From contig NC_134371.1 of the NCBI RefSeq assembly GCF_035582795.1, positions 48,649,001-48,713,000 of the forward strand: a DNA stretch of 64,000 bases, read 5' to 3'. How positions within the stretch are numbered: the first letter of the stretch is position 1; each line of letters opens with the position of its first letter. The notes under the pieces are model-generated. The model saw only the letters and a list, made by a program, of their open reading frames with translations. It did not search any database and was not told the DNA's origin. The translations under genes were made by a program, and so were the position numbers. Positions 35,501-38,500 of this stretch are shown here, piece after piece. The DNA is from Mycteria americana. Its lineage: Eukaryota > Chordata > Aves > Ciconiiformes > Ciconiidae.

Positions 35501-38500
35501 ATTGCAACTGTGCTCACTCAGAACATAAATATAGAGCAATCACAATGTTACCCTCACTTCTTGCCTGATTAAAGCCTTTAGCCCCCAGCTCCTGATGCAG
35601 CTTGTTTATGGCCAGCCTTCCTGCTAGAATTCCTGTTTGGAAATTAACTTCACCAGAAGCCAGGTGTGCTGCTGGATTCCATTTTGCATAAAACCTCTCT
35701 TCAGATACCACAGATATCTGTAAAGAAATTAAGATTCAAGCAAATATCAACTACTCTGAAAAAAAAACCCCACCAAATCAAAAATAAAACCAGCTGGAGG
35801 TCTCAATTATATAATCAATTCAAGTTTCATATGAAATTGGACAATCTGAAGTAATGCCAGCTAGTAAACTGCTTGGAATTTCAAATAAACAACATTAAAA
35901 TATATGTCCTAGGACAAGAATAAAGTTTACATTTTTAAAAGTAACTTAGGAGTTAAACTGTAGACACTTACCTGGTGTGGTACTAGTTCATCATAGCCTT
36001 TGGTGCTTCCTGTAGCACAGCATGCCATGGAAACAATCATTGCACTAGGAAGAGCATCATACGCGGATCGGTGCTACGTTAAAAAATAAATAGGTAATAA
36101 ATAGTGAAAAAAAGACATAATTCATCCCTCCCAATTCAGTATACAGAAGATTACACAGTTTAACAGAGGAATTGCTAATCACAGGATCATCATTTTCTCA
36201 ATCACACCAGAATTATTGAAAGAAATTCCTACAAACGCACTAACAAAAGCAACTTAAGAGAAACCCTCAAAAATAAGCACTCCAATTCCTACCATTCTCT
36301 CTCATTCTCTCCTGTAAAACAGGAGCTTAGGAGAACAGGTTAACAAGCAGAGACAGAACCACTTATAGTAGCTAGAATGAAAGAATCAAAACAGCTCATT
36401 AAGTAGCTTTATATACTTTTTCCCTTGAAAGACAAAATCTTGAACGTCAGAGGGAGTTGTTATAAAATTTTATTCTCTGCATGAAAACTTTAAGATCTGA
36501 AACACATTTTTCCTAAATATCACTCAGGAAAAACATCCAGATCGCACCAAGCTCTCCCATGGTTCAGAAATACCAATTCAGAAAACATTAAATGTAAACT
36601 TTGGTTCTCGGGTTAGGTGCTCACCTGAATTGGACATTCATTATCATGTGTAATATCCATAAACAGTGCATGAGCAATAGCTGGCATCAAAGGCCTCAAA
36701 CGTGGCTGAACAAAAGAGCCAACAGGTTCACCTCCAAAACGATAAACTAACCTTCCCTCTTCATGGCTATTATAAGCAGTCATTGCCTCTAAAGAACAAA
36801 ATAGGTAAGTGTTTGCGTAAGAATAACTACCATAGAGTACAGCATGCACAGAGATGTTAACGCAGCATTTTACAGTTGTTATTTTGGTGTGTTCAATCAT
36901 TTTAAAAAAATCACATTAAAACTATATTCTCCAATGTGGATACACAACCTTGGAGTATTATATTTACTATAACATATGAAGGTAGAGAAAAGGTAAGGGA
37001 AAAAAGGGAGAAAAAAGCAGAGATCTGAAACTGTTTCTCATAGGCTTTAAGAAACTCATGCAACAAAAATCAGACATGATGCAGCACTTGCATAGCAGAA
37101 CCGTGCTACAACTTCTTTTTCTCTCGCTAGAATAACAGTGAAATATTCAACCTTCTGTAAACTAATGCAGGATGTATAATAAACTTCTCTTATTTTACAG
37201 CTAGTACTGTATTTTCTGCTGAGTATCAAAAAAGTTGCAATACAAAACCTGTATTTCTGATTACATGGAGTATGAAATTAAAAGTGCATAATCCAGAAGA
37301 AACCTTTTCCTTGGAAAAAGCATGTCACCTATAATCTCTCGTTGGAAAGAGACCACACACAGAGCAAGCCTACCTCTTATTAAGGAGGTAATGCCCAGCC
37401 TATTCACAAAGATATTGTCCAGCTCCTCATTTCCTGTGAACAGTTCAGCCACTACATACAAATCGGCTCGCAATTTTCTAGCTGTGTCCAGCATGTACTG
37501 CAAAAAGCACAGCCAAAAAAGCCACAGAAAGGGGAAAGGTAGATACAAAAAAGGACAAGTTTCAAAGCTAGGCAGGGATTGGACAATAGGAAAATGCCAT
37601 GCAGCAAAGACAAATAGAAAGCAAAAATTAAGGAACAAAAAAAGTTGTTATACAGAAGAGGACACACAAACACAAGCACAATCAAGAATTAGCATACAAC
37701 ACAGGAGAAGTTAAATAGAACATGAAGAAGGAAAGGTAATTGCATAAGCAAAGAACATGAATGTGTAAGAAAAATAAAAAAGCATACCAATGTTAGTTTC
37801 ACATTTAAAACTCCAAACCATACACGACAATCCTACATAATTTTCAACTGCTTATTGTACCTCTAATCAGGCTGGTAATTCCCAGGCGGTTGACAAAAAC
37901 ATTGTCAATGTACTCACTGCCCGTGAAGAGTTCAGCTATCACATAAAGATTAGGTCTGACTGATCTGGCTGTTGCTAGCATCTCCTATAGATCATAATAC
38001 ATTTTTAATGCAAGACATCCATTGTCAGCTATGTATATGCAATCATTAACATGAATGTTAACCAAACATAAATGAGTCGTTCATATACACAGTTCATTAA
38101 AAAATATTAACAACAGGTAACATTCATAAAACCATGTTGTATTTTACAGATATTATTTATGGACTGAGTAATTCTAGGAAATTCTCTGAAGACTTTAAGC
38201 TAATTACAACTTTGTTTTTAAACAAAATCTTAACTCAAAATGCAAGAACAAAGGTTGGATAAAAGAGATACCTGTTAAAGTAAGAAATCTGAGGAGAACT
38301 TCAGTTTAAGCCTTCAAAGTTACCATTGCAAAAATAGGAACAATAAATGAAAGAATGGCAGAAATTTTGAAATGGCTGCATTTAAGAGCCACTTACAACT
38401 TTTGTGTGGGCAAATCAACTTGTTTTAGAGAGCTCTTGATAGATTTAGGTAAGCTCTGTAACCAAGCTAAGACTAAGCACTAACAAGCTGCACTACTCAA

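Follow-up and report, generated by a model that had tools for sequence, protein, structure and literature searches.

The 64-kb window analyzed here, the whole stretch of 64,000 nt from Mycteria americana, contains in the AGL (glycogen debranching enzyme) gene two intact tandem exons for the predicted proton-donor glutamate of the transferase site. In the reading that we favor, with a probability of about three in four, a productive mRNA likely includes only one of these exons, the downstream copy (B) would be used by default and the upstream copy (A) would be switched, the choice would be steered by the intron between them, and two forms of the enzyme would result.

The two copies, A at 37861..37984 and B at 37374..37497 on the minus strand, are adjacent homologous exons as expected for a mutually exclusive pair: each is 124 nt long and open, is preceded by AG and followed by GT, is entered in phase 0 and left in phase 1, and encodes 41 residues. 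The original prediction of two such exons 363 nt apart with intact splice sites and phases was thus confirmed, and a recount of the identities, 85 of 124 bases and 30 of 41 residues, gave the same values as its hand counts. As it had also claimed, translation of both copies yields the AELFTG segment with glutamate 554 and a common end of ten residues; the predicted acid/base codon is GAA 37933-37931 in A and GAA 37446-37444 in B. The window has, over its two strands, 499 placements of AG-124 nt-GT, of which 51 are open, and the best match to A after B (30/41) has only 9 of 41 residues. The 611-nt stretch with both copies has a single match in the 1.35-Gb genome, at its own place. Rough counts over the 41 codons gave dS of 1.44 and dN of 0.25, so synonymous sites are far more diverged than replacement sites, which supports the suggestion that many of the differences are synonymous and that an old duplication has been followed by selection on both copies. 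Recent gene conversion between A and B is unsupported, as 39 of 124 bases differ and the common end uses different codons.

The surrounding gene is intact. Hand reading of open frames and splice signals gave 33 coding positions, with position 12 doubled, from the start codon at 53035 to the end of the stop codon at 17425 on the minus strand. The joined model has 4,593 bases, that is 1,530 residues plus stop, and an open frame with either copy. Its introns are GT-AG throughout with one GC-AG exception; the sole non-GT donor is the GC of position 15 (CAG/GCAAGA, 35563-35565, minus strand). The figures given for agl in a bird-genome survey, 33 exons and 4,593 bp, are the same as in the present model, and a second exon copy is absent from the agl account in the available part of that survey (PMC6487185). 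Both copies share the upstream exon of position 11 (39055..39242, minus strand), which ends in phase 0 and carries the nucleophile aspartate (RLDNCHST) predicted by alignment to solved debranching enzymes, and the downstream exon of position 13 (36625..36788, minus strand), which is entered in phase 1. Other features of the window include two CpG-rich stretches, at 52751-54750 over the first coding exon of AGL and at 12751-13750 without an assigned gene, and, in AGL introns, a plus-strand G-run (22168-22203) and a perfect 22-nt tandem repeat of 2.3 copies (23599-23649). An Rfam scan of the 64-kb window gave 0 matches.

Frame arithmetic in the window shows that an mRNA with neither copy meets a stop at the third codon past the junction, and that in one with A joined to B the seventh codon past A is a stop. 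The 124-nt length shifts the frame, and thus both double inclusion and skipping are non-productive, as in other exclusive pairs. A single copy per productive mRNA is likely because skipping or joining both copies shifts the frame, with a stop within seven codons. The predicted mutual exclusion therefore holds as far as the frame is concerned, but 6 of 231 proteins of relatives have both copies.

These relatives come from two region searches in a protein collection clustered at 90% identity, with 120 of 369 matches listed for the A query and 120 of 879 for the B query. The two listings together include 231 different representatives, which were classed by residue 16 and overall likeness. Among these listed matches, 109 are of type A, 116 are of type B, and 6 have both; the classing rule counts one snail protein (P0113) as A. 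The A-type exon is found in alligator, tortoise, squamates, amphibians, lungfish, coelacanth, gar, bichir, paddlefish, many teleosts, and wallaby. All 21 bird, all eight eutherian (seven species), and all six elasmobranch representatives among the matches listed are of type B, and all of them came from the B-query listing, which favors B. No protein from these three groups is among the matches listed for the A query, where a close A would have ranked. Since a single representative of a cluster formed at 90% identity conceals the other full-length isoforms in it, this absence of A is weak evidence, and weakest for birds; for example, the wallaby A protein represents a cluster of 695 members, and one bird B protein a cluster of 642. 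Copy B of the window is 100% identical over 47 scored residues to several bird AGL proteins, and the human AGL enzyme in PDB is B-like. The few eutherian representatives suggest an apparent loss of copy A in placental mammals. Both types occur among the listed proteins of Xenopus, bichir, and marsupials as database isoforms, mostly predictions, each having a single copy. The pair is thus already visible in the databases in the form of unexplained 'isoform X1/X2' predictions.

The phylogenetic tree was constructed for 69 exon peptides, namely copies A and B of the window and 67 peptides from 65 of the 231 representatives, chosen for spread. All 26 A rows form one clade (100/99, with a bootstrap that is not fully settled and an A label set by one of 41 columns), and the branching of the B and invertebrate exons is not settled. 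The likeness of A and B within a gene, 28-30 of 41 residues, is far below that of A across species (39 for the window and Polypterus, 40 for the window and Xenopus). Because the A clade spans bony vertebrates, the duplication is, judged by these peptides, older than the split of ray-finned and lobe-finned fishes, and a bird-specific duplication is ruled out. The pair is real and old, but it is not peculiar to birds: the compared proteins of relatives show it to be general in bony vertebrates. In addition, four fish-like genomic contigs show both copies in a single frame, A first and then B, separated by a short intron whose length, judged from the spacing, is 242, 266, 269, or 311 nt. Sharks have T32 and S37 in common with most B exons, and A and invertebrate exons keep N32 and mostly T37; a still older duplication with A lost in sharks would fit this pattern.

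Copy A is the more conserved of the two and is nearly frozen. The window has 40 of 41 residues in common with Xenopus tropicalis in A and 33 of 41 in B; for Polypterus, these numbers are 39 and 34. The alligator A exon differs from that of the window only at position 1, where the bird has the common residue. Hence no replacement in A is seen on the bird line since the alligator split, against 35-70 expected over 250 My at neutral substitution rates. This near-frozen sequence argues that copy A is in use. All ten lgn/jgi contigs among the A matches listed have continuous A-type frames, 1,088-1,536 residues on 4.9-7.1 kb, and were taken as spliced RNA because such frames are continuous in a gene with so many introns. 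A further search, with a query of 260 residues, yielded 37 proteins, among which there was no spliced fragment with A of M. americana; the four fish-like contigs described above came from this search.

The intron between the copies (37498..37860, minus strand, 363 nt) is 67% pyrimidine and contains an AG-free run of 241 nt (37570..37810, minus strand), longer than any other such run in the window on either strand; the next longest runs are 146 and 134 nt. When the same bases were shuffled 20,000 times, 57 of the shuffled sequences had a run of at least this length. With rough motif weights, branch-point-like adenines were detected at 37793 (ACTAAC), 37766 (TCTTAC), and 37711 (TTTAAC) on the minus strand, at distances of 68, 95, and 150 nt from the A donor and 295, 268, and 213 nt from B, respectively. 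The best such motif in the last 70 nt of the intron scores 3.5, versus 5.5-6.3 farther upstream. Weaker candidate motifs, by the same rough weights, are located 55-56 nt from the A donor versus a steric threshold of about 50 nt, and strict steric exclusion of A and B is unsupported by these distances. The AG exclusion zone is not strict either: despite 241 AG-free nucleotides, a lone AG (37568..37569, minus strand) stands 70 nt before B, and its use as an acceptor would shift the frame. The distant-branch-point model thus fails in its strict form, because of this AG and of the 68 nt between the A donor and the nearest good adenine.

Other known ways of exclusion were considered as well. No U12-type site was seen at either copy, and the donors GTACGC, GTACAA, and GTAGGC are U2-type by eye, so that U2/U12 incompatibility is unsupported. 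In this one species, the A-B intron has no stable fold (z 0.92, with 79 of 100 shuffled sequences equaling or exceeding its stability), and the introns of positions 11-13 contain, as complementary elements, only two 14-nt inverted pairs at 86%; exclusion by competing RNA structures of the docking/selector kind is unsupported by either result.

The acceptor of A has a pyrimidine share of 0.45 over 20 nt, the lowest of 33, and that of B has 0.75. A matrix derived from the acceptors of this gene gave 9.0 for A and 6.8 for B, and both scores fall in the lower half. Since the matrix score of A is no worse than that of B, it is the pyrimidine share that points to B as the default copy, with A presumably switched on in some tissues or stages. 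The U-rich, AG-free intron would steer the choice, its branch points lying far upstream of B, and nonsense-mediated decay would clear wrong products. Frame plus decay is taken as the sure part of the enforcement, with the branch-point arrangement as a likely helper. Among the AGL introns, the one before A (37985-39054, minus strand) ranks second by the length of its AG-free run, which is 133 nt and ends 46 nt before the A acceptor; from this run, an unusual branch-point placement may also apply to copy A.

The low pyrimidine share of the A acceptor agrees as well with another explanation, in which copy A still functions in fish, amphibians, and reptiles but has become a relic in birds, silenced not long ago, with B as the only copy in use there. 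Such silencing, to which the bird proteins of type B in 21 of 21 cases and the lack of birds among the matches listed for the A query also point, seems rather improbable to us. The frame and splice sites of A are intact and no residue has been replaced since the alligator split, although at neutral rates about 11-21 My without constraint should suffice for three replacements, and the clustering at 90% hides full-length bird isoforms. It is considerably less probable that A serves mainly as a regulatory switch, lowering the AGL level through A+B mRNAs with a stop. The frame shift of A+B and the pyrimidine-rich intron are consistent with this role; however, a pure poison exon needs neither the residue-level conservation, which is higher in A than in B, nor the full-length A-only frames that exist.

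Slightly more doubtful still is a longer enzyme with both copies in frame via an extra stretch, rather than a pure exchange. In the gene models of Rhineura (P0001, 1,606 aa) and Varanus (P0002, 1,596 aa), an acceptor near the place of the lone AG apparently links the two copies without a frame shift by about 101 and 71 extra nt, respectively, and these belong with the six both-copy representatives mentioned above. Nevertheless, the corresponding junction in the window would shift the frame, and the both-copy proteins are predicted models, some of low-grade annotation. The piece before B ends with LWLPWLCFLQ in both squamate models; when the window intron is read through into B, 9 of its final ten codons are alike with Rhineura and Varanus, so that its final 30 nt seem to be conserved. 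As for an assembly artefact or collapsed paralogues, nothing was found in favor, and the 39 differing bases, the single occurrence of the stretch in the genome, and the A-intron-B order on independent contigs make this explanation negligible. We therefore retain the exchange of one copy for the other as the preferred reading.

By alignment, both alternative exons carry the acid/base glutamate and the shared exon carries the nucleophile aspartate of a GH13-like glucanotransferase. The glutamate at exon position 18 in A and B aligns with E564 of the Candida glabrata debranching enzyme, whose change to glutamine abolished transferase activity, and F566 and G568 of that enzyme lie along a cleft in which a further part of the main chain of the substrate might be held (PMC4837477). 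The latter two residues correspond to exon positions 20 and 22. The eleven replacements between A and B are at positions 1, 4, 8, 9, 11, 12, 16, 23, 25, 26, and 29, and those at 23, 25, 26, and 29 come after positions 20 and 22 in the exon. Position 25 is acidic in all 33 B rows of the tree set, and 23 of the 26 A rows have Leu, Tyr, or Val there. The exon would fold as helix, strand, and loop, as a structure model of bird protein P0143 suggests, but this model (mean pLDDT 65.9, below 50 from the catalytic glutamate onward) is too poor to place the loop. The two enzymes would have the same catalytic residues and would diverge on either side of the catalytic strand, ahead of it and in the loop that follows, next to the proposed main-chain cleft. 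With such differences, they would probably differ in substrate grip or stability and not in the reaction; a difference in main-chain grip is a natural guess.

A broader and tentative proposal is that bony vertebrates have had, since before the split of ray-finned and lobe-finned fishes, a splice switch at the transferase site giving two enzymes with different glycogen grip, enforced by an OGDH-like distant branch point; possibly it was lost in placentals, and human and rodent work on glycogen storage disease III would then have seen half of the ancestral system. If the choice of a catalytic exon is indeed conserved, debranching could differ by tissue from one gene, and the kinetics of eutherian AGL may not apply to fish, frogs, reptiles, marsupials, and perhaps birds. 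The natural A/B replacements would then mark residues that tune the transferase site, which would be useful for reading disease variants in this exon. The several transcripts described for mammalian AGL are known to differ at the 5' end rather than within the catalytic exon. Human-based gene lists would be expected to miss the pair if placental mammals lack A, as their few representatives suggest.

The pair had been thought to be undescribed, and the matches listed in our search of titles and abstracts of the open literature contained no description of alternative catalytic exons in AGL; nor is 'AGL' found in the main texts of PMC7969005, PMC9741552, PMC5740500, PMC9013439, and PMC1431707, and PMC4465641 likewise gave 0 occurrences. 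It is a tandem duplicated exon substitution, which is a known kind, and the pair itself has no account in the literature searched; what makes it of interest is the enzyme concerned, the site within it, its age, and its apparent loss in placental mammals. In the portions of the sources available, human tandem duplicated exon substitutions are likewise ancient adjacent homologues of the same phase and of a length that is not a multiple of three (PMC9741552, PMC5740500). Such lengths occur in 60% of human exclusive-exon clusters, and 9% of the clusters show possible steric interference (PMC5740500). Similarly, a long AG-free pyrimidine-rich stretch precedes the downstream exclusive exon of alpha-tropomyosin (PMC1431707), although the AGL branch points are candidates and the strict AG exclusion zone of B is only about 70 nt. 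The AGL pair also resembles exons 4a and 4b of OGDH, likewise ancient duplicated exons in a core enzyme of energy metabolism with an intron kept short, where exon exchange changes calcium binding (PMC7969005). Both introns have a large pyrimidine tract, an AG-free zone, and branch points, or candidate motifs in AGL, far from the second exon. However, the OGDH branch points are mapped 25-41 nt from the upstream donor, under the steric threshold (PMC7969005), whereas the best candidate motifs in AGL are at 68-150 nt, and in AGL an AG breaks the zone 70 nt before B. The AGL pair also offers a test of whether the OGDH-type intron arrangement has been used repeatedly in energy metabolism to enforce the choice of an exon.
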